Assembly (NCBI GenBank): GCA_028386065.3
Contig: JAKUCV010006799.1
Coordinates: 1 to 64,000, forward strand
Direction: 5' to 3'
Origin: Turnera subulata
Lineage: Eukaryota > Streptophyta > Magnoliopsida > Malpighiales > Passifloraceae
Length of the DNA stretch: 64,000 nt
Part shown: positions 10,018 through 64,000 of the stretch, in pieces
Layout of the letters: each line of letters starts with the position of its first letter
Position numbering within the stretch: position 1 is the stretch's first letter
The notes under the pieces: model-generated
What the model was told of the DNA's origin: nothing
Seen by the model: the letters and a program-made list of their open reading frames with translations, nothing else
Database searches by the model: none
Translations under genes and position numbers: made by a program

Positions 10018-10316
10018 TCTTGTGAAACGCTAAACCGAATTAGATGTTCAACTTGTTATATGTGATATAGCGTAAACATGATAGTATATGTGATATGCTA
10101 AATTCTTTTGCATATGTGATATGTTGAATTTCAATTTTCTATACATGATACATGTTTAGGTTGGTGTTTGTCAAAAGTTTTTTGACAATGAATGCTTGAT
10201 TGGTATATGATATCAATCAAGGTGTTCTTGGTAGTAAGTCAAATGAGTTCGACAAGGAAAAATCGATTGTCCGTTTGCGTATAGAACGATTGTCGTTTTA
10301 GTATAGCAGGGCCTAA

Positions 10317-10898
10317 ACATCGATGTTGGTTAGACGAACATCGATGTTCACATGAGTTTTGCCTTGGCCGGATCTTCCAAACATCGATGTTGTGTGACAA
10401 ACATCGATGTTCTAGTGAAGATTGGCTTTGGCAAAATCTACAAAACATCAATGTTCAAGAGTTAAACATCGATGTTCTCATGACGAGTGGCCTTGGCAGA
10501 ACTCTCAAAACATCGATGTTCAAAAGTTAACATCGATGTTCTAGAGCATTTCCAAATTAGTTTGAGATTCCAAAATTCTCAAACATCGATGTTTAAAAAG
10601 TACTGCCAGAAATCTTGAACTTTCAGAACTTTAAAAACATCGATGTTCAAGAGTTAAACTTCGATGTTCTGATCTCTGCCAAATAGTTTGGAGTTCCAGA
10701 ATTCCCAAACATCGATGTTTAAGAGTTAAACATCGATGTTCAAAAGTCAGACATCGATATTTAAGAGTTAAACATCGATGTTCAAGAGTCAGACATCGAT
10801 GTTCAAGAGTTAAACATCGATGTTCTTGAACACTGCCAAGTAGTTGGGAGAATCAAATTCTCAAAAACATCGATGTTCAACGTTAGACATCGATGTTC
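10317..10898. repeat. Palindrome-pair array A (AACATCGATGTT) in leader
   Basis: About 19 copies of a palindrome close to AACATCGATGTT occur between primer binding site and gag. They come in pairs. The ATCGAT cores begin at 10319/10340, 10383/10403, 10447/10468 and 10512/10532: spacing within pairs is 20-21 bp and the first pairs repeat every 64-65 bp. The interspersed sequence often holds a CTTTGGCA-like or CCTTGGC core. Because the two members of a pair are complementary, each could form a ~12-bp stem with an 8-9 nt loop in RNA or DNA. Function is unknown. Confidence 0.95.
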
Positions 10899-19237: not shown

Positions 19238-20766
19238 TATTAGTGTAATATGCCCAAAAGCCAATCATGGATGGTTATTTGTAGTCATGTATACGCATTA
19301 AGGTTATTCCAATAAGTATCGTTTATGAGATAAACGCTTGCACATACTTATAACCCTGGAATATTTCATATTCTTAAATTGTCCCTAGTCGATTATTATT
19401 ATGGATGGGTTGTAATAATAAATTAAGACTAGCGTATGTTGAGAATTGCATATGTGATATGAATTCTACATACGGGTACAAGTTAGAGAACTTGTGGACT
19501 GGACCGACACACATAAGAACGCTACATGGAACGTTATATGTTTTGTCGATAGCGGTTCTTATAATGTATTGTCCTTAGACCTGTGATCATCAAGGTTCCC
19601 AACATGTGAGTCATATGCTTTGATATTATTCATGGTCATCCGTAACTGGATAGACGTAAGGGTAATCATTGGGCATATGATGAGTGTGTAGTGGGTTTTG
19701 TATGATCCAGAGGGGATTCGTCCAACCCATATAACGGGTATATTATCGGGGTGTTTCTTGATAGAGTTGAACCGTAAATGCATAACCATGCTCGGATAAT
19801 GATATATGATATCATTGGTATCCGTTTTACCGGTTAACTCGAGGATCAAGAAACCGAGACTAAACATATGCAAGATTGACATATTCCATGTCTCGTGTTT
19901 AATCTTGATAATGGGACGAAGGGACGATGACATGTTCCGAGGCACGTGGAATCAGAATTGATCTTGTCGTTCGGGTGGCAATGATGTGTTGCTAGATGCC
20001 CGTCTTTGCTTATAATTGTAAAATAAGATTTTACGATTATTTCCGAGCGTACAAGTGCCTACAGGGTCACACACATACAGCCGTTGATTCGAGCAGGTGG
20101 TTGAACCGTGGTTGGACCATGGTTGAACCAAAGTGTGGTTGGACCGCGATTGAACCAAGGTGTGGTTGGACCGTGGTTGGACCAGTGTCGTTTTTGGGCT
20201 GGTTTGGTTCACTAAATGTCAAATTTTTGAACCAAAACTTGCTGAGTTGTGTTGATAATGTTTAGTGGGAGACATAATCATGTTGCTTAGTGGACCACCA
20301 TGTTGTCCATTAACTCCACTAATGCATTATGGCTTTGAGGGTTGAGTGATCAGATCACTATTGCTCATCTTCTTTCTCACACACACTTGTTCTTGAGAGA
20401 ATTTTCAGAACTTGAGAAGAGTTCTTGAGTGGTCTGAAAATTGAGAGAAAAACACCACACACAAAAGCTCCCGGAAACCTGTTGCTAGCACACCAGTTCG
20501 GGAGAGCTCGGGTCGAAGTCGTGAGACGTTCTTCAACCGGTTACAGCGGTTCGTGTGGATACCGTAGAGGGGCAAGGCTTTTGTCTGGCTCTAGCTGATT
20601 CGGTTCTACAGTTGGGTGAAAGACCTCAACCGTTACAGGTATGAAAAATTGTTATTCGGTTTAGCTCCCTTCACATGGATCCTCCGTGTGTATCCGGTAT
20701 TTCCGCTGCGCATACATGTTGTATTTTGTGCTTTTGATTGTCAATTGCATGAACCGGATACTTACA
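19238..20766 (+). repeat. 5' LTR of element 2
   Basis: It is homologous to the element 1 LTR and ends GGATACTTACA directly before a GTGGTAGCGGAGC primer binding site. A GGTTGGACC-type minisatellite is expanded and diverged at about 20098-20190. Confidence 0.9.
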
Positions 20767-20780: not shown

Positions 20781-20976
20781 TCTTGTGATGTCCTAAACCG
20801 AATTTTGTGTGTTCATATGTTATATGTGATATAGCTTGAACATGCTAGGTATATGTGATATATATGTTGTTGACGTTGATTTGTCAAAAGTGTTTTGACA
20901 ACAAGAACTTGATTGGTATGTGATATCAATCAAGATGTTTTCGACAAGGGTGCTTGAAAGGTATATGATACCTACG

Positions 20977-21578
20977 ACATCGATGTTTAAGCTTCAACAT
21001 CGATGTTCTCTTAGGTCGATTGTTGACCGAGAGGTCAAAACACCTATGTTTAATTGTTAACATCGATGTTCTATGCACTCGGAAACCTCCAACATCGATG
21101 TTTGATGGTCAACATCGATGTTTTGAGGGTTCGGCGACCTCCAACATTGATGTTTGATAGTCAACATCGATATTTTGAGGGTTCAGCAACCTCCAACATC
21201 GATGTTTGAGTGTCAACATCGATGTTTTGCAGATTCGCAAACTCCAAACATAGATGTTGAAGGGTTCAACATCGATGTTGTGGAACCCAGTAACTTCAAC
21301 TGCGAATTTGAGGCAGAAGGAGGCCGAATTGGTGTCTGGCTTGAAAAGCAACGTTGTAGCCCTACTTCTTAGCTTTCCAGCGACACCAAGTTTGCACAAA
21401 TTGGATCTCTACAGCTCTGGATATGGCCGAAATACTAAGTGTTGCCAAGTAGTTGGGAGAATCAGATTCTCAAAACATCGATGTTCAAGTTAAACATCGA
21501 TGTTATTGAGCTACTGCCAAAGAGTTGGGACAATTTGATTGTCACAACATCGATGTTCCAAATGGTAACATCGATGTT
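20977..21578. repeat. Palindrome-pair array B in leader
   Basis: About 16 copies of AACATCGATGTT or close variants lie between primer binding site and gag. Cores at 20979/20999, 21094/21114 and 21146/21166 show a 20-bp spacing within pairs. The interspersed sequence (for example GGGTTCGGCGACCTCC) differs from that of array A, so the palindromes and their spacing are better conserved than what lies between them. Confidence 0.95.
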
Positions 21579-25987: not shown

Positions 25988-27479
25988 TGTTAGTGTAATA
26001 TGCCCAAAAGCCAATCATGGATGGTTATGTGTAGTCATGTATACGCATTAAGGTTATTCCAATAAGTATCGTTTATGAGATAAACGCATGCACATACTTA
26101 TAACCCTGGAATATTTGATATTCGTAAATTGTCCCTAGTCGATTATTATTATGGATGGGTTGTAATAATAAATTAAGACTAGCGTATGTTGAGAATTGCA
26201 TACGTGATATGAATTCTACATACGGGTACAAGTTAGAGAACTTGTGGACTGGACCGACCCACATAAGAACTCTACATGGAACGTTATATGTTTTGTCGAT
26301 AGCGGTTCTTATAATGTATTGTCCTTAGACCTGTGATCATCAAGGTTCGCAACATGTGAGTCATATGCTTTGATATTATTCCTGGTCATCCGTAACTGGA
26401 TAGACGTAAGGGTAATCATTGGGCATATGATGAGTGTGTAGTGGGTTTTGTATGATCCAGAGGGGATTCGTCCAACCCATATAACAGGTATATTATCGGA
26501 GTGTTTCTTGATAGAGTTGAACCGTAAATGCATGGCCATGCTCGGATAATGATATATGATATCATTGGTATCCGTTTTACCGGTTAACTCGAGGATCAAG
26601 AAACCGAGATTAAACATATGCGAGATTGACATATTCCATGTCTCGTGTTTAATCTTGATAATGGGACGAAGGGACGATGACATGTTCCGAGGCACGAGGA
26701 ATCAGAATTGATCGTGTCGTTCGGGTGGCAATGATGTGTTGCTAGACGCCGCTCTTTGCTTATAATTGTAAAATGAGATTTTACGATTATTGCCGAATGT
26801 ACAAGTGCCTACAGGGTCACACACATACAGCCGTTGATTCGAGCAGGTGGTTGAACTGTGGTTGGACCAGGGTTGAACCAAGGTGTGGTTGGGCCGCGGT
26901 TGGACCGTGGTTGGACCATGATTTTATGATTTTGGGCTGGTTTGGTTCACTAAATGTCAGATTTTTTAACCAAAACATGCTGAGTTATGTTGATAATGTT
27001 TAGTGGACCACCATGTTGGCCATTAACTCCACTAATGCATTATGGCTTTGAGGGTTGAGTGATCAGATCACTATTGCTCATCTTCTTCCTCACACACACT
27101 TGTTCTTGAGAGAATTTTCAGAGCTTGAGAAGAGTTCTTGAGTGGTCTGAAAATTGAGAGAAAAACACCACACACAAAAGCTTCCGGAAACCTGTTGCTA
27201 GCACACCAGTTCGGGAGAGCTCGGGTTGAAGTCGTGAGACGTTCTTCAACCGATTACAGCGGTTCGTGTGGATAACGTAGAGGGGCCAGGCTTTTGTCTG
27301 GCTCTAGCTGATTCGGTTCTACAGTTGGGTGAAAGACCTCAACCGTTACAGGTATGAAAAATTGTTATTCGGTTTAGCTCCCTTCACATGGATCCTCCAT
27401 GTGTATCCGGTATTTCCGCTGCGCATACATGTTGTATTTTGTGCTTTTGATTGTCAATTGCATGAACCGGATACTTACA
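25988..27479 (+). repeat. 3' LTR of element 2
   Basis: The LTR follows the purine-rich CAAGTGGGAGAT and begins TGTTAGTGTAATATGCCC. It closely matches the 5' LTR of the same element but has fewer GGTTGGACC units (about 26850-26925). It ends CTTACA. Confidence 0.92.
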
Positions 27480-31407: not shown

Positions 31408-32933
31408 TATAAGTCTCCGGACATGCAAATATGACACTCATATGGAATAAAATGCGCAGCATAAAAACCGGAAACACATGGAGGATCCAAGTGGAAGTAA
31501 CTAAACCGAATAACAATTTTTGCATATCTGAATCGGTTGAGATCTTTCACCCAACTGTTGTGCCGAATCAGCTAGAGCCGGACAGAAATCCGGCCCCTCT
31601 ATGGTATCCACACGAACCGTCGATCTCTGGTCCGAAAACATCTCATGATCTCCAACCCGAGCACTCCAGAACAGCAGTGCTAGCTGCGGATTTCAGGGAG
31701 CTATGTGTGTTTTGTGTTCTTCTTCCTTTTTAAAAGAAGGAAGAGGGTGAGTGTGTATTCTTCAAGCTCTGAAAATTCAGACTCAAGAGAGAGAGGGATC
31801 AAGAGTAATCTGATTACTCAACCCCATTAGTGTATAGAATAGTGGAGTTAATGGCCAACATAATGGTCCATCAACCAACATGATTAAGACACCATCATAA
31901 TGTAGTCTAATCATGTCTCCACTAAGTCTAATGGGATCACACATCACAACACTCATGTTTGGTTCAATAATTCTGACAATTAGTGAACCAAACCAGCCCA
32001 AAACGACCCTGGTCCAACCACGGTCCAACCACAACTGGTCGAACTATGGTCGAACCACCGTTCAACCACCTGCTCGAATCAACGATTCTATGTGTGTGAC
32101 CCTGTAGGCACTAGTAAAGTTTGGCAATAATTGTAAAATCTCATTTTAAAATTATAAGCAAAGAGCGGCGTCTAGCAACACATCATTGCTACCTAAACGA
32201 CAAGATCAGTGCTGATTCAATATGCCTCGGGAACATGTCATCGTCCTTTCGTCCCATTATCAAGATTAAACACGAGACATGAAAAACGTCAATCTCGTAT
32301 ATGTTTAATCTTGGTTTCTTGATCCCCGAGTTAACTGTGTAAAACGGATACTCATGATATCACCATATCATATAATCCGAGCATGGCCACGCACTTAACA
32401 GTTCAACTCTATCAAGAGGCCATTTGATAATATACCCGTTATATGGGTTGGACGAATCCCATCTCGATCAATCAAAACCCACTACACATTATATCATATA
32501 CCTAATGATTACCCTTAAGTCCACTTAGTTACGAATGACCAGGAATAATATCAAAGTAAACGACTCATATGTTGGGAACCTGGATGATCTCAGGTCTAAG
32601 GACAATACATATAAGAACCACTAATGACAATCATATAACGTTCCATGTAGGGTTCTTATGTGGGTCGGTTCAGTCCACAAGTTCTCTAACTTGTACCCGT
32701 ATGTAGAATTCATATCTCATATAATTCTCAACATACGCTAGTTTTAATTTATTATTACAACCCATCCATAATAATATTTGACTAGGGACATTTAAGAATA
32801 TATCAAATATATTCTAGGGTTATAAATATGTGCAAGTGATTATCTCATAAACATATTTATTGGAACAACCTTAATGTATATACATGACTACATACGATCA
32901 TCCATTGATTGGCTTTTGGGCACATTACTAACA
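31408..32933 (-). repeat. 3' LTR of element 3 (reverse)
   Basis: On the minus strand it starts TGTTAGTAATGTGCCC after the purine-rich GTGCAAGTGGGAGAT. It ends CTTATA, where the usual CTTACA has changed. Confidence 0.92.
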
Positions 32934-33029
32934 ATCTCCCACTTGCACTAAAGCCAATCATCTATATATCTAATACCAATGGATGTAGCATGACCATCAT
33001 GCTTTTATTGTGTGAGAGGCTCAGACAAA

Positions 33030-34745: not shown

Positions 34746-34824
34746 GTATCCATATATGTCATGCATGTAATTCACCAATCATATATTGATGTTATGTAAG
34801 TTTGGAGACAAAAATTACATGAGA

Positions 34825-35466
34825 ACATCGATGTCTAACAGTGAACATCGATGTTGTGAATTTGATTCTCGCCAACCACTTGGCATTGCTCATGAACATC
34901 GATGTCCTAGCTTGAACATCAATGTCCAATGGCCTCTAGAACTCAAGAACATCGATGTCTTGATTTGAACATCATTGTTCTGAGGCTCTGGAACTCCAAA
35001 CTATTTAGCAGATCTCAAGAACATCGATGTTAGGTTCTTGAACATCGATGTTGGAAAGTTTCGAAGGTCCATTGGCCTCTGGAACTCAAGAACATCGATG
35101 TCCTGACCTGAACATCGATGTTGGCAAGTTCCGAAGGTCCAAAACTTGGCAGTAGTTTTAAACATCGATGTATTACATTTAAACATCGATGTTTGATTTT
35201 CTAGAACTCAAGGACATCGATGTTTCAGCTTAAGCATCGATGTTTAAGAATTCTGGAACCTCAAAACAATTCGGCAGAACTTTTTGACATCGATGTTCAA
35301 TCTTGAACATCGATGTTCATTCTTGAACATCGATGTTCATGGGAATCTGCCAAGGCCAACCTTCATTGAACATTGATGTTTTGTCTCACAACATCGATGT
35401 TCAGTAGGCTCGGCCAAGGCTAAACCCATGTCGACATCGATGTTCATCAGATGAACATCGATGTTT
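34825..35466. repeat. Palindrome-pair array C in leader
   Basis: About 21 copies of the AACATCGATGTT palindrome or one-base variants occur. Cores at 34827/34847, 34898/34918 and 34951/34971 are 20 bp apart. The array lies between primer binding site and gag of the reverse element, the same relative place as arrays A and B. Interspersed words such as CTGCCAAGGCCAACC echo, in reverse, the CCTTGGC core of array A. Confidence 0.95.
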
Positions 35467-35771: not shown

Positions 35772-37283
35772 TGTAAGTCTCCGGACATGCAAATATGACA
35801 CTCATATGCAATAAAATGCGCAGTAGAAAAACCGGAAACACATGGAGGATCCAAATGAAAGTAACTAAACCGAATAACAATTTTTGCGTACCTGAATCGG
35901 TTGAGATCTTTCACCCAACTGTTGTGCCGAATCCGCTAAAGTCGGACAGAAATCCCGCCCCTCTACGGTATCGACACGAACCGTCGATCTGTGGTCCGAT
36001 AACATCTCATGATCTCCAACCCGAGCACTCCCGGACAGCAGTGCTAGCTGCGAATTTCTGGGAGCTACGTGTGTTTTGTGTTTTTCTACCTTTTTCAAAG
36101 AAGGAAGAGGGTGAGTGTGTATTCTTCAAGCTCTGAAAATTCAGACTCAAGAGAGTGAGGGATCAAGAGTAATCTGATTACTCAACCCCATTAGTGTATA
36201 GAAAATTCAGACTCAAGATAGAGAGGGATCAACATAGTGGTCCATCAACCAACATGATTAAGACACCATCATAATGTAGTCTAATCATGTCTCCACTAAG
36301 TCTAATGGGATTACACATCACAACACTCAAGTTTGGTTCAATAATTCTAACAATTAGTGAACCAAACCAGGCCAAAGCGACCCTGGTCCAATCACAACTG
36401 GTCAACCATGGTCCAACCACCTGCTCGGTTCAACGATTCTATGTGTGTAACCCTGTAGGCACTTGTAACGTTTGGCAATAATTGTAAAATCTCATTTTAC
36501 AATTATAAGCAAAGAGCGGTGTGTAGAAACACATCATTGCTACCCAAACGACAAGATCAGTGCTGATTCATAATGCCTCAGAAACATGTCAATGTCCTTT
36601 CGTCCCATTATCAAGATTAAACACGAGACATGGAAAACGTCAGTCTCGTATATGTTTAATCTTCGTTTCTTGATCCCCGAGTTAACTGTGTAAAACGGAT
36701 ACTCATGATATCACCATATCACATAATCCAAGCGTGGCCACGCATTTAACAGTTCAACTCTTTCAAGAGGCCATCTGATAATATACCCGATATATGGGTT
36801 GGACGAATCCCATCTCGATCAATCAAAACCCACTACACATTATATCATATACCTAATAATTACCCTTAAGTCCACTCAGTTACGAATGACCAGGAATAAT
36901 ATCAAAGTATACGACTCATATGTTGGGAACCTTGATGATCTCAGGTCTAAGGACAATACATATAAGAACCACTAATGACAATCATATAACGTTCCACGTA
37001 GGGTTCTTATGTGGTCGGTCCAGTCCACAAGTTCTCAAACTTGTACCCGTATGTAGAATTCATATCTCATATAATTCTCAACATACGCTTGTCTTAATTG
37101 ATTATTACAACCCATCCATAATAATAATCGACTAGGGACATTTAAGAATATATCAAATATATTCTAGGGTTATAAATATGTGCAAGCGTTTATCTCATAA
37201 ACATATTTATTGGAACAACCTTACTGTATATACATGACTACATACGATCATCCATTGATTGGCTTTTGGGCACATTACTAACA
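35772..37283 (-). repeat. 5' LTR of element 3 (reverse)
   Basis: A full LTR with TGTTAG...CTTACA on the minus strand, about 5% different from its partner by eye over the first 130 bases. A local duplication of AAAATTCAGACTCAAGA lies near 36130-36230. Confidence 0.92.
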
Positions 37284-39572
37284 ACCTACTCCTCTTTGTT
37301 GGGTTTATCATAGAGAATCATTTCAAGCAAAGATTTCCATGAAAATGAGCATGCCCCAAACCTCCCCAAACACCATTTGGCCATAAATTTTGCCTAGGCC
37401 GTTCTTTCGGGTTCTCAACCTAGCAGGCATGTCTTAATTTTTGCCTAGATCGCCCTTTCGAGTTTTCAATCTAGTCGACTAGTCCCCCTCTCTTTCTCCA
37501 TTTTCTTTTACTTTGTTCCTCTGAGGTGGACAGCGGTCAAAACTTACCCAGATGATGGTGAGTTCCAAGTCTTTTCATCTTTTGGCAGCACTTTCCGGTG
37601 ATGGCTCGATTTTGATCCTTTTTTGACTTAACAACATGATCAGGAAAAATCTAGGGACACTAATCTTGAGCATGGGAGGAGGTTTTCTCAATTGAAGAAG
37701 TCCAGACCTAAACCTTATCATCTTTTACTAACTTAGCTTAGGAACCAAACTTTATTTAGACCGGGCTCTTTAATAGAGTTACCTACGTACCAGTAGACAA
37801 TAACGTCCATTATTTCAAATCACAAGGAAGTATTTTTCTCGAGAAGTTTAAACATTGGTTGTGGGTGCACTTCCTCTTTTCCCATCCTTTCTTTTTTCCT
37901 TTTTTTTACCTTCCCTTTTTTTTTTTGGAATTGACCTCACAAGCCAAGCTTATTAATTCAAGACAAAGTATTTGATTTGAAACAGATTTGATTTGCTGGA
38001 TCAGGTCTTCGTAGTTCATTTCTGTGGTTCCCAACTAAGTTGACAAATTCCAATGAGATTTAACACATCATCTTCATAAATAAGAGGATAGGACATCCAT
38101 TACACGAATACTAATAAAAAAGACACTGATTATAGACAGACGACATTGACCCTTCGAGGAGAAGTTAACATGGATAGACTTCATCCCTCCTTTATTTTGA
38201 GAAAAGAAAAACAATCTTGACATTTTGAAACTCCTAAACCTTCTTATCCTCCCTATTAGCCATTCTAAGCATCCTCCCCCATTACCCATTCAATCTTGTC
38301 TGGGTACACAAGCTTTCTTCGTGGGACTATAGTGACGGTTTCCTTCGGGTCATCATGTTGGACTTCGACCATCATTGTCTCGTCTCCCCCCCCTTTGACT
38401 GTTTTCATCTTCCTTATCAGTCATCATGCCATCTTGTAATTTCGAGTGTTCCTCGGATCTTGAAACATCACTCCAATCATCCCACTTGCTTTCCCTTAGC
38501 TCCTAGAAGCATTCCCAGAGAGCTTCTCGAGTGAGTGCAGCATTCTGGAGCTAGATGCCCCTCAGCACATCTTCAACAAGCACATATTGTCCCATGGCAT
38601 CCCGAAACTACTTCATGGCTACTTGGGCAAGTGGTTGGCCTAGTAAGACCCTACAGAGAATTGTTTCTTCTAACTAGCCCATCAACGTCCGGAAGGTTGA
38701 TTGCACCTCTTTCTCTTGTTGAAGACTCTGTTCTTCAAAAATTGGAAAATCATCCTCTGTCAGCTTCCCCTTCAGATTCGTTTTTGTGCCAGTATCGCCT
38801 TCCGACTGGTTAGCAAGCTCATTGCTCATGGTTTCTCTTGACTGCCAAAAGTGGAGAAGTGGGTCTTAGTGCCTTGCTCAGATGGATTCAAAAAGAAGGC
38901 TAGCAATAAATGGTTGGATAGGACACGGGCTGACTCCTGATTCGGCATACTATCTTTTCTAAAAATATGCAAAATGACATGTTTTACGCAATCCTAACTT
39001 CTCTAATTCTTAGAGCAACTGGGCATCCACTCAAATTATCAAAACATGGGTGAACCTCCTTTGAGTTTTGGTAGACCACCGCTTGAAAACATGAAACTTT
39101 TTCCCTCTTGATAGCCATGGATGATTACTCCCCTTTCTTTTTTTCTCAAATCCCCATCTATGCATGAATTAAAATCCAAAAATAACAAGCTACAACACAT
39201 ATATACAATATAACAAATGCCATACAAATGCACGTACCGTTTATTGATTCACAATGCATGAGATGCTCATAGGTGTGCAGCTGGTTGGGGGCCAAAAGGT
39301 TGCCGCTAGGGAATAGGCTGACCTACTCACATGTGATAATGGATATCGCGTGAGGTCCAAGGCCGATTAATCCCCATCATTGGTAAGCATCGAGAAACGG
39401 GTTCGCTCAAGCTGCCATCGCTTAAAGAAAGCATTGTGGTGAACTTGGATTCCCTCGCCCTATAACGGTAAAGGCTTCACATCAATCATGATGAATGCAA
39501 GGCACTTACGATGAGAAGTAAAAAGGCACATCAGATTCTACAATTGCACAAAATCTCTTGAACCCACTACTT
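37284..39572 (-). other. Interior (5' side) of element 5, noncoding
   Basis: I see no gag or pol similarity and no long frame on either strand. A ~50-bp imperfect tandem duplication (TTTGCCTAGGCCGTTCTTTCGG-like, about 37386-37485) is present. It probably holds the leader of the element and the scar of a large coding deletion. Confidence 0.6.
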
Positions 39573-49559: not shown

Positions 49560-52063
49560 TGATTTATTTTGACCTCTGAAGATTTCTTCAATTTTGGTAC
49601 ATAGGGACATCGAACCACATTTTGCATTTTGGTAGGCCAGAATGTGTATGTCAATTTTATGGTGTTTTGGTACGAGGAGCGAATCGATAAGAGATCTAAT
49701 AGTTCCTGCCCTAGATTTTCTTTGTGTTGCCGAGAAGGAAGAGTCTTACTTCCTTTGCTGCAACCTGCACCAGACCAATTAGAAACTCTTTTAGATTGCA
49801 ATAAAGACCACATATCAAAAAAATTTAGAAAAAACATCAGACTTTACAATTCTATGTTTGCCTTTACATCTATTGGTGCCAAGGTTGACAACGAAATCAA
49901 CAGAAGACTTGGTCCTTACATCTTCAAAATTAACGGCCAAAATCATCATAGGATTGGTTCTTTGTTGCCTATTGATCGGAAACCTCCAAAGTTTGCACAA
50001 CTATATATATATGACACAGACAATGAAGTTAGCAATAGAATCTCATCCTTTTCGACAACTGATACTACCAAAGTTATTGATGCTCACTTGGTTCTAAACT
50101 TGGTTCAGATGCTTGATTCCTATAACGAAGTTGTAAAAGCATTTAGGATGGTACGCGATCATTGCAAACATAGTGATGATTCATCTATAAGGCTCAGGTT
50201 GATTGTTCAAAATATAGAAAGGAACAGGCAATATGACTCGCCATCCTGCAACGGGTTAGCTACATTGATAGATGGTGATTTTGGCCAATCTGTTCGGAAT
50301 CATGATATAATTGTGGACCACAAAACTAAAGGGTTGAAGCACATAAGTGATTTACATCCTTTATATATGGCATTACAATATCCTTTATTATTTCCATATG
50401 GAGAACCGGGATATCAAGTGGATTTACCAAATGCTAATCCCATTGGAAGTCAAGGCCGAACAATCAAAAGATATCACTATAAATGAATATTATACCTTTT
50501 GATTACAACAACGAAGGCAAGAAGGGAAAACTCTTATCCAAAGTCAGCGTTTATTGCAACAATATATAATTGATGACTACTCATGCATAGAGGAATAGAG
50601 ATTAGATTATATTCGTAGAAATCAAAATGACATGAGATCTGAAATATTCAGTTGTGTTCAAGATGTTTTTTTTAGGGGTGATGTTGATGCTAATAAACTT
50701 GGAAAAACAACAATTTTACCTTCAAGCCATACTGGAAGTCCACGTTACATGTACCAAAACTATCAAGATGCTATGGCCATTTGTAGAACTTGTGGATATC
50801 CAGATTTATTTTTGACATTCACATGCAATGCTCAATGGCCTGAAATTAAAGATGCAATCTCTATGATAGACAATTTACAACCAGAAGATCGTCTAGATAT
50901 TGTTTGTAGGGTCTTCAAATTGAAACTAGATTACTTAGTTTCTGATATCAAAAAAAAAAATATTTCGGTCAGACTATTGTATGTAAGCAACCTCCCTTAC
51001 TGTTTTAGAAGCATGAACTATCATTTTCGTATACTATAACAAGGGAAAATAGTATTGTCTCCGCCAATTTCTAAACGTCTTTTCATAATTTTTTCCATGC
51101 GGATTTCAAGTATTTATACTGTTGAATTTCAGAAGAGGGGACTTCCGCATGCACATATCTTAGTGTGGTTGGATGACAAGAATAAATATGTGACTCCTGA
51201 TTAAATTGATTCGATAATATCAGCTGAAATTCCAGATGCAAGCACCGATCCTATTGGCTATGAAGCGGTTTCAAAGTTTAAGATGCACGGACCATGCGGA
51301 ATGGCCAACCAACAGGCACCGTGCATGACTAAAGGATACTGCTCTAAACATTTTTCGCAAAAATACACTGCTCAGACTATTGTAGATTCTAAAGGATTTG
51401 TTTTATATAACAGAAGAAAAACTAATCATCGAGTTCAAAAAGCAAATATCCAACTAGATAATAGTTTTGTTGTTCCCTATAACAGAGATTTGATTGTCAA
51501 ATACCAAGTCCACATTAATATTCTAATATGTAACAAATCCAATGCAGTTAAATATTTATTTAAGTATATAAATAGGGGCCCTGATAGAATAAAAGCAATG
51601 ATTGAGACTACAAAGGAATTTGATCTAAAGAGTAATAACAATTCTTAAGGAATTTGATACAAAGAGTAATAACAATTCTTCTGACAACATTGACGAAATC
51701 AAGTCATACCTAGATTGTAGCTTTTTATCTATATACGAAGCTGTTAGGAGAGTATTTCAATTTTCAATACATTTTAAACAACCATCTGTTGAACGCTTAA
51801 CTATCCACTTACCAGACATGAATAGAGTTGTTTTTCCTGCAAACCAAAGCGTGCCAAGTTTATTTTTTAGAAAAGATATAAGAAAAATAATGTTTACTGA
51901 ATCGATGCATACAAATTCGCAGGAAAATGCTAAAGAACTCACATACGCACAATTTCCTACAAAATGGGTGTGGAGCAGTAGAGATAAAATTTGGACACAG
52001 AGAAAAAAAGGTCATTCTTTAGGTCGTATAGTTTACATTCATCCAAGTGCTGGAGAATTGTAA
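49560..52063 (+). pseudogene. Helitron Rep (HUH endonuclease) domain, broken
   Basis: 49629-50485 is open and matches the Helitron helicase-like N-terminal region (FWYEERIDK, FSLCCREG, HRIGSLLP). 50632-51039 continues with PSSHTGSPRYM, YQDAMAICR and FLTFTCNAQWPE. The HUH motif HAH (51148-51156, in GLPHAHILVW) and the double tyrosine motif KYLFKYINRG (near 51550) are both preserved, so the two nicking tyrosines are visible. A 34-bp tandem duplication (51613-51646, 51647-51680) ends that frame. 51818-52063 covers the Rep C-terminal block (ELTYAQFPTKWVW). Rep cleaves and joins single strands during rolling-circle transposition; this copy is interrupted several times. Confidence 0.92.
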
Positions 52064-52129
52064 AATTTACGAATGCTTTTTAAATGTTGTAAGAGTCCCT
52101 ACAAATTTCGAAGACATCAGAACAGTCAA

Positions 52130-54041
52130 TAACATTATTTATCAATCGTATTAGGAAACTTGCAAAGTTTTAGGTTTGTTAGGTGATGATATGGTTTGGC
52201 ATGAAGCATTAAAAGAGGCATCACATTGGGCAACAACATACTAGATAAGACACATTTTTTTGCTACAATTGTTATCTCTTGCGAAGTTGCAGATCCTGTT
52301 AACCTATGGGAGACAAATTGGAAACTATTATCTGAGTATATTGTTTACAAATGGAGAGAAATTTTCCACACTCCAAATGTTAATATTCCTGACTATCAAT
52401 TAAAAAATTATACTTTGTTAGAACTTGAAAAAATATTTAACAATAACGGTACTTCTTTGCAAGACAAAAAATTTCCTCTCTCTGATCAGACTATTTTTCA
52501 AGATGCTGGAAACAAACTTTTGAGGGAAGAATTGGATTATGACACCAATGCATTACAAGAAAGGCATAATCATTTATATTCACATCTAAACGCAGACCAA
52601 AAAATGGATTATAATGCAATACTCGAAGCAGTTAATGAAAAATCCGGTGCTATATTTTTTGTTTATGGCCACGGTGGAACTGGCAAAACATTTCTATACA
52701 AGACAATAATTTCGAAAATTCGCTCCAATGGAAAAATTATTTTGGCTATTGCATCCTCTGGTTTAGCGTCATTACTATTACCTGGAGGCAGAACTGCTCA
52801 TTCTAGATTTAAAATCCCACTAAAGATAGATGATTGTTGTATCAAGGTACACAACTCGCACAATTAATTCAATTCACTGATCTCATTATATGGGATGAAG
52901 CGCCTATGAATCATCGAAATTGTTTTGAAGCTGTTGATAAATCACTAAGAGATATTTTAAAACATAGATCCTATCAATGTTCTTGATAAACCATTTGGAG
53001 GAAAACTCATTTTACTAGGGGGTGATTTTAGACAAATTTTAACTGTTGTCCCCAGAGGAGACAGAAACAAAATAATCCAAGCATCCATTAACAAATCAAA
53101 ATTATGGAGAGACTGTCATATATTTGTTCTCAAAACTAATATGTGATTATTAAATCCTTCACTAGATGAGAAGTCCAAAACATCAATCCCGAATTTTGTT
53201 GAATGGATCCTAAACGTCGGAGATGGAAATGTAGAAAGCATTCAAATGAATAATGAAGAAAATGAACCCTCGTGGATTAAAATACCCGATGAATTTTTGG
53301 TCCATGCAAATGAAAATAAACTTGGGGCTATCATTTCAGAAATTTACAATGATTTTCAGCAAAATTTTTCAAATATATCATACCTAAAACAAAGGGCGAT
53401 AGTCACACCAATGAACTTCACTGTCGATTTAACAAATGACCAAATACACTTAATGCTTCCAGGCGAGGAAAAGACATACTATAGTTTTGATTCAATATCA
53501 AAAATTTCAATGAGTAGTGGCCAAAACATGGAATTATATCCCATTGAATTTTCGAATTCTCTAAAACTAAATGGAATACCCCATCATGAATTAAAATTAA
53601 AAGTCCGTACCCGATAATTTTAATGCGTAATATTAACCAAAGCGCTGGCTTGTGCAATGGAACAAGACTAATAATAACACAACTTGGCTCTAAAGTAACA
53701 GAAGCCGAAATAATTACTGGAAATCATTCCGGAAATAAAGTTTTCATTCCGCGAATTGAACTTGAAACATCAGAACATAAATGGCCATTTACATTAAAAC
53801 GACGACAATTTACTATCAAATTACGCTACGCTATGACAATTAACAAAAGTCAAGGTTAAACACTCGAGAAATTAGGCTTATATCTACCAAAACCTATATT
53901 TACCCATGGTCAATTATACGTGCATTGTCGCGTGTCACATCTCCATATGGAATAAAAATTTTGCTTGAAAACGAAGAAGGAATACCCAAAAATTACACCA
54001 AAAACATAGTTTATAAAGATGTGTACGATAATTTGTATTGA
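52130..54041 (+). pseudogene. Helitron PIF1-type helicase, broken
   Basis: 52226-52867 holds Walker A (GHGGTGKTF, near 52670) after a DQKMDYNAI motif. A shift follows, then Walker [10 protein letters not shown] (near 52890), GGDFRQILTVVPRG (near 53025) and later helicase blocks in 53246-53617 and 53623-53859 (RNINQSAGLCNGTRL, MTINKSQG). The last readable piece (LGLYLPKP...VYDNLY) stops at 54041. Motif order is that of the SF1 PIF1-like helicase fused to Rep in Helitrons. At least four frame breaks are present. Confidence 0.92.
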
Positions 54042-58231: not shown

Positions 58232-59698
58232 TGTGTAAGACCAAACAAGCAAAGAAGGGGGGGGGGGGGGTGAATTAGCGAATAAGAACTAACTAAAACT
58301 TTAAACAATAATAATTGCAGATTTAAAAGGAGAGAAAAGCAAACCGATTTATACTGGTTCACACACACACAACCCGTGTGGCTAATCCAGTCCTCCGAGA
58401 GACTCTCTAGAAGATTCCACTATCACCGTTAAGCTTCCGGGTGCTTAACAAACCGTTTACAACTCCTGCTTGAAGATTCAACACTTCAAGAATTTTCCCA
58501 CAGAAAGAAGACCCTCTTCCTATGAATTCACTACAAGGGAATAATCCTCCCTCAAGGTGTGTGATTACAATTGAGTCACTCAAAGCAAAAACTCTCTTCA
58601 AGAGTAGGTATGAGTACACAAAGTAAGCTCTATAAGGCAACTCTCAATTCTCAATGATATTGGCTCATAAATGATATGTATGTATAACAATGAATGCTTG
58701 AAACTGTAGAGAGTCGATATGTATATAAAACAGAGACCTACATGCTCTATTTATAAGGTTAAAAACATGTATTACCGTTGGAAAATATGTTCAAAACATC
58801 TTTAAACAAAGTATCATGGAAAGGTGAAAAGTATATCTGCTCATGTCGGCTGAACATCGATGTTGCAAATCAGGACATCGATGTTCTAGCCTTTGAGTAT
58901 GCATTATTGGCCCAACGGTCATAAGGACATCGATGTTGCAAATCTGGACATCGATGTCCTGGCCAGTGAATGCGAATCATTGGGCTAACGGTCACTAGAA
59001 CATTGATGTTGGCCAGAAGGACATCGATGTTCCACAAGACATTGTCCAAGACCCGAGACGAAATAACATCGATGTTCCATAGCTGAACATCGAAGTTTTG
59101 GACATTCCCAAAACAATCTTAAAACCAGATTCAGTAGGACATCGATGTTATGAAACAGGACATCAATGTTCAAACTCTTCAAAGCAATTTTTAAGCATAA
59201 CGGTCATGAGGACATCGATGTTCAGAAATTGGACATCGATGTTATAAACTACTGCCTACTTTTGGAAAAATTGTTTTAGTGCAGGACATCGATGTTCCAA
59301 TATTGGACATCGATGTTCAAAGCTTAGAAACCTTCTCGAAAGCTTGGTTTCATGGCAGGACATCGATGTTCAAAATTGGGACATCGATATTCATGGCTCG
59401 GAAGACATAAATATGATTGAAATAAAATCAAATTGATGCATGAGTAAAAGTGATTTTGTTTGAGCCAATAACTTAGAGACATTGAATGTTTAACCTTGTA
59501 CAAAATTGAGTTCCTAACTCTTTTTTTTCCTCTTGCTTGATCTTGTCACATCCATTCTTGAACTTTTGATGTCATAAGGCTTTGCTCTTGATTATTTCTT
59601 TTTGCTCCATAATAATGATCATCTTAATACAAGGTTGATTTGTCATTATCAAAACCTGAGTGAGATAAAGAGATGTTAGCAAAACATTATTTTCAACA
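58232..59698 (-). repeat. 3' LTR of SIRE-type element
   Basis: The inner end at 59698 is firm: minus-strand TGTTGAAAATAATG follows the polypurine tract. The outer end is uncertain. The LTR holds palindrome array D and, near its outer end, a run of 14 G (58257-58270) before TGAATTAGCG. Confidence 0.7.
58854..59391. repeat. Palindrome-pair array D inside the LTR
   Basis: About 16 palindromes of the GACATCGATGTT/AACATCGATGTT type occur in pairs. Cores at 58856/58877, 58929/58950 and 59002/59023 give a 21-bp spacing within pairs and a 73-bp repeat unit, which contains CAACGGTCA/TAACGGTCA in the longer spacer. Spacing within pairs is as in the family A copia leaders, while the longer unit and the spacer sequence differ. 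Confidence 0.95.
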
Positions 59699-59712
59699 AT
59701 TTCCCCCTTTTT
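59699..59712 (-). promoter_or_regulatory. Polypurine tract of SIRE-type element
   Basis: On the minus strand AAAAAGGGGGAAAT stands directly before the LTR, close in form to the tract of soybean SIRE1-like elements. Confidence 0.85.
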
Positions 59713-60084
59713 GATAATGACAAACAAGTTGAAATATGTGCTTATTAGTTCCCCCTATGTTTTAGCCATGATACCATTTAAGTTGAACTTTTTGAACCTG
59801 GTGTGCACATACATATTAAGTTGTTTTCCCCCTTTTGGCATTAGCAAAAAGAAATTGAAAAGACAAAGACAGGCTCTTATGCAAATGAAAGAACATGAAA
59901 GATAACATAAGATAAAAAAAATAGAAATATGGGTGTTAGTTCCCATCATCATCATCGTTATCTTCTTCATTTTTGCAGCAACTTCTTCTTCTTCATTCGC
60001 CGCGTCCATGTCCATAGGATCACCGGCCACAGTAGGATCATATGGCTCATCATCATCATCTCCCTCAGCTCCGAAATCATAGCC

Positions 60085-61185
60085 CTAAAATGTTGCATGA
60101 TAGGGTGGAGGTTGATAGTGGACTCTATCAAAGTAGGACCGAAGAGCATGCCCTTGGCGTTGAACTTCAAAGTCAATGCGATCAATGGACTGTCCCATGC
60201 TATTAACACTCAATTGAAGATGGGTAAGAGAAGCTGGAATTGATTCAAAAGTGACGACAGAAGCTTGAGGAGCCGGTTCTGGACAAACTGGTGCTGCGGA
60301 ACTTTCACCCGGTGGAAGTCTGGGTGCTTGCTCGGATTTACCAGTTCGGAAGGTGTCATCACTAATTGCCCACGTTTTTGTATGAGAGACTTGGGGACCT
60401 TCCCGAGCATCAATGCCGGCCTGTAGGAGAATGTCCAACACCATGATGGGATAGGGCAGAGGATGATGGGTGGATTGAGACGGATAGTCGGTCATGTGCA
60501 TAAGCACGAAACGTGCCCAATTAATTGGAGCATGATGGAGAATGGCATGGAGTATCTTCACATCCTCAATAGATAGGACGATATGATTTCCGGGTCGTGG
60601 CTTGATGACCCAGGTGATGAGATAAAACAGAACACGATTCTCCGGAGGAAGAGAATGAATTGTTGGTCTTTTGGAATGGGCGGTACGGACAACCTTCGTG
60701 AAACCGAGCGCTTGCAAAAGAGGAGCTTCAGTGGTCGTGATGAAATGAGGACCGCCGTAAGAGGCAATATCCTCACCCTGAGATGGTAAGCCGGAAACTG
60801 CCCCGAATTGCTCGAGAGTCAAAGAGATAGCAATTCCATTCACCTGAGCTGTTAACACGTCACCATCGCGATTAAGGATGGAGTAGAAGGCTTTGGTAAA
60901 ATCGGCACTATACTGATGGCTTCGGTTGGTTACGAAGTCCCACAATCCAGATGCTCGAAGGTGCTCTTCAAGCCTTGTGTAGTTCTTCTCCCTGGGATAC
61001 GAGACTGGAAGATATCGGGGAGGAAAAATTTGACGAGTGTGAAAGAGTGATTGATAGAGTGTGAGTTGTGCACCTGAGGTGAACCAAACAGCAGATTGGT
61101 CATCCAAAGGTATTTTAAAAGAAGAGGAAGAAGGACCTCCTCTTTTGGAGGGTTGTCTCACAGGCGTTTTGCCGTGTCTGCCCAT
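60085..61185 (-). CDS. Env-like/plant transposon-domain ORF of SIRE-type element
   Basis: An intact 366-residue frame starts MGRHGKTPVRQPSKRGG and lies between pol and the 3' LTR on the same strand, the place of the env-like gene in SIRE/Maximus elements. Residues ~50-230 (for example RLEEHLRASGLWDF, FYSILNRDGDV, SLTLEQFGAVSGLP and the later LFYLITWVIKPR) match the pattern of the putative plant transposon protein domain (PF20167-like) found in many such ORFs. I see no signal peptide or clear membrane segment, so nothing in the sequence supports a true envelope function. The C-terminal third is Pro/Ser-rich, then polar. It is shorter than many SIRE env-like proteins. It is the only long unbroken element gene in the window besides the pol end. 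Role unknown. Confidence 0.75.
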   Translation of the reverse strand: MGRHGKTPVRQPSKRGGPSSSSFKIPLDDQSAVWFTSGAQLTLYQSLFHTRQIFPPRYLPVSYPREKNYTRLEEHLRASGLWDFVTNRSHQYSADFTKAFYSILNRDGDVLTAQVNGIAISLTLEQFGAVSGLPSQGEDIASYGGPHFITTTEAPLLQALGFTKVVRTAHSKRPTIHSLPPENRVLFYLITWVIKPRPGNHIVLSIEDVKILHAILHHAPINWARFVLMHMTDYPSQSTHHPLPYPIMVLDILLQAGIDAREGPQVSHTKTWAISDDTFRTGKSEQAPRLPPGESSAAPVCPEPAPQASVVTFESIPASLTHLQLSVNSMGQSIDRIDFEVQRQGHALRSYFDRVHYQPPPYHATF

Positions 61186-61439
61186 AGTATAAGTGTTGAA
61201 TCAGGGAGTATAGAGGTGAAGATAGGAAGGATATGGAGTAGAGAATGCAAGAAGAAGACTTGGATAGATTGTGGAGAAGAGTGGAAATGTAGAGGAATAG
61301 AGTGTATAAAGTAGGCAGCAGAAAAATAGTTGTTGGGAGCTGGTAACGGCTAGTAGCGGCTATAAACGACTAGAAAGTGTTGAAGACAACGGTCAATAAA
61401 TCTCCCAACGGCAATATTTTTTTGAAAATCTGCAGCTGA

Positions 61440-61790
61440 ACATCGATGTCCAAGATCGTAACATCGATGTTCTGTACTGTTTGGTTGATTCTGTGAACGG
61501 CTAACGGCTATTTTTTAAAAAAATCCACAGCTGAACATCGATGTCCATTTGCTCTCGGGTCCGAGTTTTGTAAACACTGAAAAAGAGGACATCGATGTCA
61601 TTATTCAGGACATCGATGTTAAGTGCTCTCGGGTCCATGCTGTGGAACGTTTAAGCAAATCGGACATCGATGTTCGGATTTGGAACATCGATGTTTTATG
61701 CCCTCGGTTGTGTGAAACATTGATGTTGAAAAATATGGAAGGAAAAGAATACTTACTGAACATCGATGTTCCGATACAAAACATCGATGT
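61440..61790. repeat. Palindrome-pair array E upstream of env-like ORF
   Basis: Ten palindromes occur, mostly in pairs: cores at 61442/61463, 61591/61612, 61666/61687 and 61762/61783, each exactly 21 bp apart. Several spacers contain GTGCTCTCGGGTCC or related words. On the minus strand the array lies between pol and the env-like start codon. Confidence 0.95.
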
Positions 61791-62388
61791 TGTATGGGCT
61801 TTACATGTTTTGTCCAATTTGTGGTTCTTCCGGTTCCCCCTGCCTTTTGGCCTTGGTGAGGGGTACCTGCAAAACTTAGTTAGACGAGCCTCGGGTGCTC
61901 AAGTTAGCAAAGATAATACACTAGTTTTAGAAAGTTGAAACATGTGTGACAAATTTAAGGATAGTAAGTTGGCCTCTGCCCCCAAGAATTATTGTCTTGG
62001 ATTTCTATCCTCCCGGGATGAGAGGGTATCTCCTTGTCGTAAGTACACCGGGCTCGAGAAAATGTCTTGTCAGTTGGACTTTGGGTGCCTCTGATGCCCA
62101 ACTAATTAGACTGTAAGTTCTGTGATGAATCAGTAATGCAGTTTTGGCCACGATTTTCAACAAAGCAGACGCTTGATTATCTGAGAAATTGGATGTTAGC
62201 AATAAAAGAATTTGAAAGTGTCGCAAAAAGGAGATTCTTGAAAACCGAAGCGGTTTGGAGGGGTCTTCCTCTGAACGTTATTCATGATACTCCAAGCATA
62301 GGTAGGGGTCACTTCCTGAACACTGCTGGTCACTTCAGAAATTTGTAGGGGTCACCTTTTGAGAGAAGAAGCAATATAATTATGTTTC

Positions 62389-62396
62389 TATAAATA
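62389..62396 (+). promoter_or_regulatory. TATA box of plus-strand gene-like unit
   Basis: TATAAATA lies 83 bases before the ATG at 62479, a normal distance for a plant TATA box with a short leader. Two copies of TAGGGGTCAC (62302 and 62347) lie just upstream. Confidence 0.65.
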
Positions 62397-62478
62397 GACA
62401 TACGTTAGAGCTTATTAAACACAGAAAGTTTGTAATCCAATTTCAGAAAGAGAGTTAGCAAAAATATCAAAAGCAATA

Positions 62479-63120
62479 ATGCCTTCCCCTTCCACTGTCT
62501 TTTTTGTTGAGGGTGCTAGCATAGGCAGGAGAAATCGGTTGGCTTTCAGCATCATAAATGAGCAACAAGGGCCATTGCCAGAGGAACTAGCAAGAATTCC
62601 TCGTCTTGTCTTCGTAGATGAGATTTATTCGTCCCGATTCTTTGTCACCCCTATGGAAGAGACCATCTTCCTGGAACATCAACAATCCTTGCGAACTTCC
62701 TACTACGGTACGGCTAATTCCACCATGTTCTTTATCTCTGACAGGTTTCAGGAGCTTCAGTTGGAACCATCCTACCAGATTTTGAACGAGAGCAGTTATT
62801 ACCAGATTACAATGACAGTTCAGAGCATTCCTCGGGTAGCTGGAGTAGCACCCACTTGGCCAAAGGTTCGCCTTTTGGTGTGGAACTGCAGGGGCATCAC
62901 AGCACGTTCCCAAGATTTTGTTCGAATTCTACGAGACCTGAAGAACCAATATAAACCAAATATGGTTCTGCTTACCGAGACTCAATGGCAGCAAACCGGA
63001 AACCACGGAGTTATTCCTCTTCGCTTTCCACCAACACATCCATTCGAGCTTCCTGGCCAGAACAACTCGGGGGGAATGTGGTTTGCTCGGAATCATAGCA
63101 TTAGGGTTAAATACCCCTAA
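62479..63120 (+). CDS. Unknown protein with LINE-type endonuclease N-terminus fragment
   Basis: The 213-residue frame starts MPSPSTVFFVEGASIG. The first ~125 residues resemble nothing I recognise. Residues ~130-170 (VRLLVWNCRGI, FVRILRDL, MVLLTETQ) match the start of the endonuclease/exonuclease/phosphatase domain as found in plant LINE ORF2: the WNCRG and E-T metal-site region only. Catalytic residues further on are absent, so nuclease activity is not expected. A TATA box, a short leader and AATAAA signals about 170 bp after the stop (near 63289) make it look like a transcribed small gene. It runs opposite to the surrounding SIRE-type element. It could be cargo, a separate insertion or a processed chimera. 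Confidence 0.6.
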   Translation: MPSPSTVFFVEGASIGRRNRLAFSIINEQQGPLPEELARIPRLVFVDEIYSSRFFVTPMEETIFLEHQQSLRTSYYGTANSTMFFISDRFQELQLEPSYQILNESSYYQITMTVQSIPRVAGVAPTWPKVRLLVWNCRGITARSQDFVRILRDLKNQYKPNMVLLTETQWQQTGNHGVIPLRFPPTHPFELPGQNNSGGMWFARNHSIRVKYP

Positions 63121-63190
63121 TGGCTTCACTGTAACTGGTGTCCCAAATCATTAGGAGCTAGATTATGATAAGTTTTTTTTTTTTAATATA

Positions 63191-63285
63191 TGTGTGATTG
63201 TAATGTAATATAAACAATGTAAGCGTGTGTGTGTGATTGTAATGTAATATAAACAATGTAAGCGTGTGTGTGTGATTGTATAAAA
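63191..63285. repeat. 39-bp tandem repeat, 2.4 copies
   Basis: Units beginning TGTGTGATTGTAATGTAATA start at 63191, 63230 and 63269 (partial). They lie just after the plus-strand gene-like unit and before its AATAAA. Confidence 0.95.
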
Positions 63286-63288
63286 TCA

Positions 63289-63294
63289 ATAAAA
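63289..63294 (+). terminator. Possible polyadenylation signal
   Basis: AATAAA in the context ATCAATAAAATC lies about 170 bases after the stop at 63120 and could serve the plus-strand unit. Confidence 0.4.
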
Positions 63295-63357
63295 TCTTGT
63301 GTGTTTGTGTTAATTCAGCATGTATCAAAGCAAAATTGGTTTAGAGAACTTACCTGA

Positions 63358-63388
63358 ACATCGATATTGTGATACTCAACATCGATGT
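63358..63388. repeat. Palindrome pair F
   Basis: A single pair (AACATCGATATT and AACATCGATGTT) has cores at 63360 and 63381, again 21 bp apart. It lies between the pol stop and the inserted gene-like unit, and was probably continuous with array E before that unit arrived. Confidence 0.9.
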
Positions 63389-63480
63389 TGTGATCATGTT
63401 GCCAAAATTCTGGATTAGCCTTCAGTTCTACTTTGTTCCCCCTATCATTTTGCCTAATTGGCCTTCATAATATGAGTTCT

Positions 63481-64000
63481 TCAAGGAGGGTTGCACATGC
63501 CCAAATCCAGCCTTATTTTTGTGAATTGATCTTCTTTCAAAGGCTTGGTGAAGATATCTGCAAGTTGTCCATCGGTCTTGACAAAATCAAGTGTTATATC
63601 TTTCTTTTGCACATGATCACGAATAAAATGATGTCTAATCTCTATACGCTTTGTTCGTGAATGCTGGATAGGATTCTTAGTGAGATTGATGGCACTAGTA
63701 CTATCACAGTAAATAGGAATAGATTCAAACTTCAAGCCATAGTCTTCAAGAGTATGTTTCATCCACAAAACTTGAGCACAACAAGAACCTGCAGCTATAT
63801 ATTCCGCTTCGGTAGTAGAAGTAGCTACGGAATTTTCCTTTTTGCTAGACCATGAGACTAATGCTTGACCAAGAAATTGACATGTACCACTAGTACTCTT
63901 TCTATCTAAGGTACTCCCGGCAAAATCCGCATCGGAATAACTAGTGAGAGTAAATGAACTCACTTTGGGATACCAAAGACCAAGGTTGGGAGTCCCTTTA
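63481..64000 (-). CDS. pol: SIRE-type pol, RNase H C-terminal end (partial)
   Basis: The frame is open from the window edge to a TGA at 63481-63483. It reads YSDADFAGSTLDRKST, SWSSKKENSVATSTTEAEYIAA, IYCDSTSAINLTKNPIQHSRTKRIEIRHHFIRD and ends FTKPLKEDQFTKIRLDLGM. These are the copia RNase H blocks in SIRE-type form, with the catalytic D of DADFAG, the E of TTEAEY and the D of YCDSTS visible. RNase H removes the RNA strand during reverse transcription. No break is seen in this part. Confidence 0.93.
   Translation of the reverse strand, partial: KGTPNLGLWYPKVSSFTLTSYSDADFAGSTLDRKSTSGTCQFLGQALVSWSSKKENSVATSTTEAEYIAAGSCCAQVLWMKHTLEDYGLKFESIPIYCDSTSAINLTKNPIQHSRTKRIEIRHHFIRDHVQKKDITLDFVKTDGQLADIFTKPLKEDQFTKIRLDLGMCNPP

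Follow-up and report, generated by a model that had tools for sequence, protein, structure and literature searches.

Why would copia retrotransposons of different lineages carry the same short palindrome, in pairs whose centres lie two turns of the DNA helix apart? The question is raised by a 64,000-nucleotide stretch of Turnera subulata DNA (contig JAKUCV010006799.1, positions 1 to 64,000; hereafter the window), where a preliminary description had noticed such pairs in a SIRE-type element near the end of the window and in a copia family of another lineage, here called family A. We find that this palindrome is present in tens of thousands of copies in the genome, that it is arranged in phase with the helix and at composite spacings in three copia lineages, and that it is constrained between elements. 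Read from the sequence, this arrangement suggests that one host protein docks on the arrays of three copia families along one DNA face.

One palindrome in six arrays

The site can be written RACATCGATGTY, with a nearly invariant 10-bp core, ACATCGATGT. Searched as AACATCGATGTT with at most two mismatches, it has 86 copies in the window, where 100 dinucleotide shuffles gave 4.1 on average and 10 at most. Of the 86 copies, 84 are grouped in six arrays (19 + 16 + 21 + 16 + 10 + 2). Three arrays belong to three copies of family A, whose long terminal repeats (LTRs) measure about 1.5 kb and are 92.6-94.4% identical in a self-comparison: A1 (10316..10897, plus strand, 19 palindromes; LTRs 8518-10003 and 15432-16936), A2 (20976..21578, plus strand, 16 palindromes; LTRs 19240-20766 and 25990-27479) and A3 (34824..35465, minus strand, 21 palindromes; LTRs 31410-32937 and 35774-37287). 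They begin some 0.2-0.3 kb past the 5' LTR and stop some 0.57-0.68 kb short of gag, and are therefore leader sequence, not LTR sequence. The other three lie on the minus strand in the SIRE-type element. Array D (58853..59391) holds 16 palindromes, paired with a spacing of 21 bp, and occupies the LTR from 307 to 845 bp inside its start, upstream of the TATA box; array E (61439..61791) holds 10, in the linker 5' of an env-like open reading frame (ORF); array F (63357..63389) is a single pair, spaced by 21 bp, directly after the RNase H ORF.

Within pairs the step is 21 bp throughout D, E and F, in agreement with the preliminary description, and 19-21 bp in A1, A2 and A3. Between pairs the steps vary, taking values of 32, 43, 45, 52-54 and 74 bp in D and E and of 31-33, 43-44 and 50-54 bp in A1-A3, with one gap of 206 bp; most are whole helical turns, and they replace the fixed units of 73 bp for the SIRE-type element and 64 bp for family A that had been supposed.

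Spacing by whole helical turns

The assembly searched has 7,125 contigs with a total of 518.7 Mb; the draft genome of T. subulata is described as a short-read assembly of 7,877 scaffolds (PMC9862265), and such an assembly may collapse or mis-join arrays. In the whole genome we counted 76,101 copies of the palindromic 12-mer and 63 of its reversed-letter control. A genome-wide search for pairs against a control, as the preliminary description had proposed, gave 29,922 exact pairs with centres 19-21 bp apart (control 15). At larger spacings we counted 2,185 exact pairs at 22-30 bp (control 1; among 50 matches listed, 16 at 22, 1 at 23 and 33 at 30 bp), 57 at 24-29 bp (control 0), 3,714 at 30-33 bp (control 1; 30-32 bp among the matches listed), 855 at 34-39 bp (control 0; among 50 matches listed, 48 at 39 bp, 45 of these being triples spaced by 21 + 18 bp), 6,359 at 41-44 bp (control 5), 362 at 45-49 bp (control 0) and 21,811 at 50-54 bp (control 5). 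Pairs need not be neighbours, and the counts at 41-44 and 50-54 bp include sums such as 21 + 21 and 21 + 32. Per bp of spacing, pairs at 24-29 bp are about 1,000-fold below those at 19-21 bp. The 21 + 18 bp triples occur in a Sirevirus-like subfamily (C23, C55, C61, C68, C80 and C158 of G000, and others).

Neighbouring steps were read in 23 array loci, namely four from contig starts, 18 taken in contig order from the genome match listings, and L035; arrays are present in four of the 20 contig starts of 10 kb (200,000 bases, 46,966 of them N). The 222 steps fall at 18-22 bp (122), 30-32 bp (7), 41-45 bp (20), 51-55 bp (69), 58 bp (1), 63 bp (1) and 74 bp (2). All 23 arrays, which are a sample and not a genome survey, were placed in copia elements or close derivatives: one in family A (L065), nine in a compact copia that we call G or in G-like elements (L059-L064, L068-L070) and 13 in Sireviruses. 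BLAST gave these placements except for L039 and L076, which were assigned to Sireviruses by eye from the similarity of their spacers. A spread without relation to retroelements, the outcome named in the preliminary description as speaking against its proposal, is thus not what this sample holds.

For the phasing between pairs we took the 134 between-pair steps of the 23 loci and the window and collapsed similar spacers to 44 clusters. Thirty-five of these lie at most 1.6 bp from a multiple of 10.6 bp, where 30% are expected, and no set was as periodic as the observed one among 10,000 uniform and 10,000 jittered sets. Steps in phase make up 27/31 in the A leader, 37/50 in the Sirevirus LTR, 19/22 in the Sirevirus linker and 24/24 in the G LTR.

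A core kept between elements

We aligned arrays and compared the 10-bp core with the spacers, several loci being used repeatedly. In four LTR pairs of single elements, core and spacers differ at 6/280 and 13/467 positions, respectively. In fourteen comparisons between elements the figures are 74/1607 (4.6%) for the core and 910/3126 (29.1%) for the spacers, a roughly six-fold lower divergence of the core; they become 71/1447 and 883/2799 without L073/L075 and L071/L072, two comparisons of loci that share a contig at a distance of about 7.5 kb and may be LTR pairs of one element. Alignments anchored by palindromes are biased toward the core, yet the single-element pairs carry an equal bias and show no difference. 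Core divergence is thus below spacer divergence between elements but not between the two LTRs of an element, which suggests that the core is preserved during the multiplication of elements and that, once inserted, it decays at the rate of its surroundings. Selection, a common host factor and a placement on one DNA face, all raised in the preliminary description, gain support from this six-fold difference and from the spacing spectrum in helical turns.

Spacers related in part

The spacers had been held to be non-homologous between elements, which stands only in part. The best stretch shared by A and SIRE spacers is identical at 19 of 21 positions, in inverted orientation. Furthermore, similarity between families exceeds shuffles (40 for each test; L039, L064, L072, L075 and L076 left out) only in the inverted orientation for A and Sirevirus (z 4.8; direct -0.2) and for Sirevirus and G (z 4.8; direct 0.5), and in both orientations for A and G (z 3.9 and 5.8).

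The word CTGCC also recurs at a fixed offset in A, the SIRE LTR and G. It starts 7-9 bp beyond the palindrome in 14/14 occurrences in A, in 11/18 in Sirevirus LTRs, on the other strand (the other 7 at 0-1 bp), and in 4/9 in G (the other 5 at 10 bp on the opposite side). Among distinct spacers, 13/31 in A, 11/46 in the Sirevirus LTR and 3/18 in G have it at 8-9 bp. More generally, 66 pairings of a 5-mer with an offset are shared by two or more families; 100 shuffles, which take no account of relatedness, gave a mean of 0.01. Genome-wide, CTGCC was found 4,148 + 4,213 times at 8-9 bp beyond the palindrome and 4 + 4 times at 14-15 bp, where about 180 would be expected at either offset with equal base frequencies; the count at 14-15 bp is itself below chance, and a fair estimate of the enrichment is therefore nearer 50-fold than 1,000-fold. 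Since the spacers are partly related between families, array segments have probably been exchanged between them, and of the earlier idea that the motif spread as its own unit we retain that a spread of array segments between lineages probably contributed.

Another motif is confined to one lineage. MYB3R proteins bind the MSA element, whose core is AACGG (PMC9730800). In the form YAACGGY this core is found in 18/47 Sirevirus LTR spacers (window 58853-59391; L035, L044, L057, L058, L066, L071 and L073) and in 3/22 linker spacers, with a density of 9.8 per kb in the LTR spacers against 0.35 per kb in the sampled contig starts; AACGG stands 7 bp from the palindrome in 16/19 cases. As it is absent from the A (0/31) and G (0/21) spacers, we rejected MSA as the factor site common to all lineages, and it looks like a Sirevirus addition. 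The MSA-like motifs hint at a cell-cycle control of the Sirevirus.

A Sirevirus with an unusual word

On the minus strand, the element at 58-64 kb reads RNase H, array F, array E, env-like ORF, polypurine tract with AT/TG junction, array D in the LTR, and TATA box. The RNase H end of its pol (63481..63999) is cut by the window end; it has tblastn relatives and matched no Pfam family. The part of the element in which the large Sirevirus gag, with zinc knuckle and coiled coil, and the gag/pol frame arrangement would be read lies outside the window. The env-like ORF (60088..61185, 366 aa) matches Pfam PF20167 at 38.8 bits, below the curated cut-off of 45, and over 45% of its length the encoded protein shares 96% identity with one from Turnera subulata (two matches among 1,937 candidates, both from Turnera). 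The terminal polypurine tract and the AT/TG junction (59698..59707, minus strand) give the LTR start, 59698; the junction stands between the tract and the 3' LTR, with inverted-repeat arms on both sides when read by eye, as in Sireviruses. Several polypurine tracts in the linker are another Sirevirus feature, and GGGGGA has five minus-strand copies between 59707 and 63442 (the other four at 59755, 59832, 61840 and 63442); the terminal base is A, as reported for Tnd-1 and ToRTL1 (PMC2829016). The TATA box (58749..58755, minus strand) follows array D at a distance of 98 bp. For the C-rich integrase signal of Sireviruses near the LTR end, the sequence offers a C run around 58270-58260 as a candidate; where that end lies could be judged from one LTR only.

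Palindromes are known in such elements: RM boxes, present in the LTR and 5' of ENV, have been described in 13 of 21 Sireviruses (Bousios et al. 2010, BMC Genomics 11:89, PMC2829016), 12 of the 13 having a CGG-CCG core and the exception, Tnd-1, having ACAATCGATTGT. Like RM boxes (at least 8 palindromic copies, 200-400 bp into the LTR, upstream of the TATA box), the palindromes here are of high copy number, with 16 in D from 307 bp into the LTR, and they recur in the linker before and not after ENV: E and F precede the env-like ORF, and no palindrome within 2 mismatches occurs between that ORF and the LTR. The word is similar to that of Tnd-1. Unlike in the other RM boxes, the CGG-CCG core is absent, its place being taken by ACATCGATGT, and whereas RM boxes are called Sirevirus-specific in that paper, two further copia lineages, A and G, carry the word here. 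For comparison with the CpG-island feature of RM clusters, the observed/expected CpG ratio is 0.94 in D and 1.42 in E against 0.62 in the flank, with a G+C content of only 40%. The main text of the 2010 paper does not discuss helical spacing, 'helical' and one 'spacing' appearing there in reference titles only. The element, correctly recognized earlier as a SIRE-type copia with its arrays in the LTR and the pol/env-like interval, is a Sirevirus, and as its array layout is that of the RM boxes, the SIRE half of the finding is of a known kind with an unusual word. The shared palindromes noted earlier are real; that palindromes in the LTR and 5' of ENV were an already described Sirevirus feature was not known to the preliminary description. 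The LTR cis-region of maize Sireviruses likewise contains palindrome clusters, with a different word, CACCGGACNNNGTCCGGTG, and has been read through RNA secondary structure and small RNAs (Bousios et al. 2016, via PMC10760457).

A plus-strand ORF across array E (61549-61938) was taken as a by-product of the repeated word. In the linker, an ORF on the opposite strand (62479-63120, plus) resembles by eye the endonuclease of a long interspersed nuclear element, without a Pfam match; a 39-bp tandem repeat (63191-63280) adjoins it, perhaps as part of a nested insertion.

Two further copia families

RNase H identity is 33% between A and the Sirevirus, 37-40% between A and G and 38-41% between the Sirevirus and G, which bears out that the SIRE-type element belongs to another copia lineage than family A; families A and G receive no lineage names here, the comparison consisting of pairwise RNase H identities only. 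G is a compact copia whose gag-pol, with the Pfam families RVT_2, rve, gag_pre-integrs and Retrotran_gag_2, is encoded between paired arrays on contigs C8 and C20. The arrays flank it on either side as parts of the LTRs, and in the copy read the array stands downstream of a TATA-like word, near the primer-binding site. On C8 (G000 C8:42700-45400; L063, L079, L064), two G-like arrays 1.9 kb apart surround 1.1 kb without a match to the copia proteins tried; this is perhaps a non-autonomous LTR element of small size that has retained the array.

Besides these arrays, the family-A LTRs contain short tandem repeats of another kind, built around TGGTTGGACCA, whose period of 11 bp again comes near one helical turn (9383-9419, 16295-16354, 20098-20184, 32009-32058 and 3119-3208). 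Elsewhere in the window, a 123-bp tandem repeat at 18078-18466 is composed of GAATCATCTCATCC words, and ORFs at 49629-53617 resemble by eye pieces of a Helitron Rep/helicase.

Proposed docking platforms on the DNA helix

We consider it reasonably probable that the arrays are helically phased DNA docking platforms for a dimeric host factor, probably acting as enhancers; binding, dimeric state, cooperativity, enhancer effect and host origin are what we infer. A dimeric, sequence-specific nuclear protein of the host would dock on RACATCGATGTY at the DNA level. The basic unit would be two sites two helical turns apart, and units about 3, 4, 5 or 7 turns apart would place most bound dimers on one side of the DNA, where cooperative binding may occur, while a second factor would probably bind CTGCC, starting 8-9 bp beyond the palindrome. 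In the Sirevirus LTR the array is situated in U3, upstream of the TATA box, and contains MSA-like motifs (AACGG) as well; its place in families A and G is downstream of the likely transcription start. Such a position-flexible enhancer, or a related chromatin element, may have been retained by several copia lineages for access to one host factor, after some exchange of array segments followed by selection.

Several observations weigh against this reading. Many copies descend from few arrays, so that raw pair counts can serve to describe the genome but do not amount to independent trials. The out-of-phase 18-bp step is carried by one subfamily, as the 21 + 18 triples among the 34-39 bp pairs attest, and steps of 45 and 58 bp exist in Sirevirus arrays. 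The family-A core does diverge, the weakest case being A1 versus A3 with 30/182 differences. The position of the array relative to the promoter, with start sites that are themselves inferred, differs between families. Finally, the A and G spacers add RNA stability beyond that of the palindromes.

This last point bears on the possibility that the arrays act as RNA, neighbouring palindromes forming hairpins that would shape the leader, feed small-RNA production or allow dimerisation of the genomic RNA. Indeed, array D folds more stably than its shuffles (z -9.6), the A and G arrays lie by position in transcribed leaders, and small RNAs map to the palindrome clusters of maize Sireviruses (Bousios et al. 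2016, as reported in PMC10760457). However, when the spacers were shuffled and the palindromes kept, three Sirevirus arrays gave z values of 0.1, -1.1 and 0.2: their folding is explained by the palindromes alone, whereas the spacers add some stability in four A arrays (z -2.1 to -3.3) and one G array (-3.6). Deviating bases are matched in the partner copy in only 0/32 (A), 10/60 (Sirevirus) and 0/18 (G) cases and within their own copy in 0/32, 6/60 and 0/18, a covariation test of limited power because the sites are well conserved. Spacing by whole turns is, moreover, a property of DNA that is not expected of a flexible RNA. We therefore regard a role as RNA as unlikely, the hairpin model being without support from covariation and spacer shuffling for the Sirevirus arrays and weakly open for A and G.

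It is likewise improbable, in our judgement, that the array is a selfish tandem repeat spread by recombination or template switching, its spacing a mere trace of repeat multiplication. The internal tandem duplications present within arrays, the spacer similarity between families in four of six tests (z 3.9 to 5.8) and the CTGCC offset that the families have in common would all fit such a repeat, but whole turns are kept across 44 dissimilar spacer clusters, steps of 3, 5 and 7 turns are not derivable from a 21-bp repeat losing units, and a core more conserved than the spacers between elements, and not between the LTRs of one element, also speaks against it. Very unlikely, finally, seems the idea that the arrays recruit not an ordinary activator but a boundary or anti-silencing factor by which the elements would be held open. 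In its favour, arrays occur on either side of likely promoters as well as in the linker, and the observed/expected CpG ratio is 0.90-1.42 in five window arrays against 0.63 in the whole window, though every palindrome itself contains a CG. Against it, the stretches read contain no extra ORF common to the three lineages, and an element-encoded factor is therefore without a candidate.

Relation to known systems

Host-factor sites in the leader of a retrotransposon have precedents in Drosophila. The leader of gypsy carries a cluster of Su(Hw) sites. An activator is present in the 5' untranslated region of the Drosophila copia element (PMC2829016). In both, as in family A, the sites lie between LTR and gag; factor, motif and host kingdom differ, and we claim no membership. 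The search for earlier reports of helical phasing in retrotransposon palindromes found none in the open literature, closed papers and supplements being outside its scope, and no plant-retrotransposon paper, judged by title, was among the open-literature matches listed for the word as text. Literature searches aimed at the docking factor yielded no usable lead.

Outside Turnera, exact pairs of the 10-mer were found in one stretch of viral contigs and 33 of genome contigs. The first spacing is 21 bp in 25 of these 34 stretches, and 11 of the 34 lie in an open frame of at least 900 nt; the eight examined are short tandem repeats, and we take these stretches as unrelated. In several bacterial assemblies (L006, L009, L012, L016, L026, L030, L010 and L017) ACATCGATGT returns at intervals of 21 bp, the 11-bp spacers being of a few types; such arrays occupy several contigs within one assembly and are unrelated to the plant arrays as far as seen.

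Conclusion

When the RM palindromes were described in 2010, neither a factor nor a mechanism was attached to them. The helical spacing seen here, repeated in tens of thousands of copies, points to proteins along one DNA face and makes the question testable, and the presence of the same word in other copia lineages means that it is not a peculiarity of Sireviruses. The genome offers a natural spacing library, frequent at 2, 3, 4 and 5 turns and rare between, which resembles a large evolutionary spacing experiment, and a single palindrome pair could serve directly as bait for the factor. Beyond the docking platform itself, we tentatively entertain a shared access code, less probable than the platform, in which three copia lineages would use interchangeable phased composite arrays (pair plus CTGCC at a fixed offset), which one host factor would read wherever in the element they are placed, as an enhancer or anti-silencing platform, their segments being traded and their register selected. 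If this were true, the approximately 76,000 sites would be among the largest target sets of that factor in the genome.

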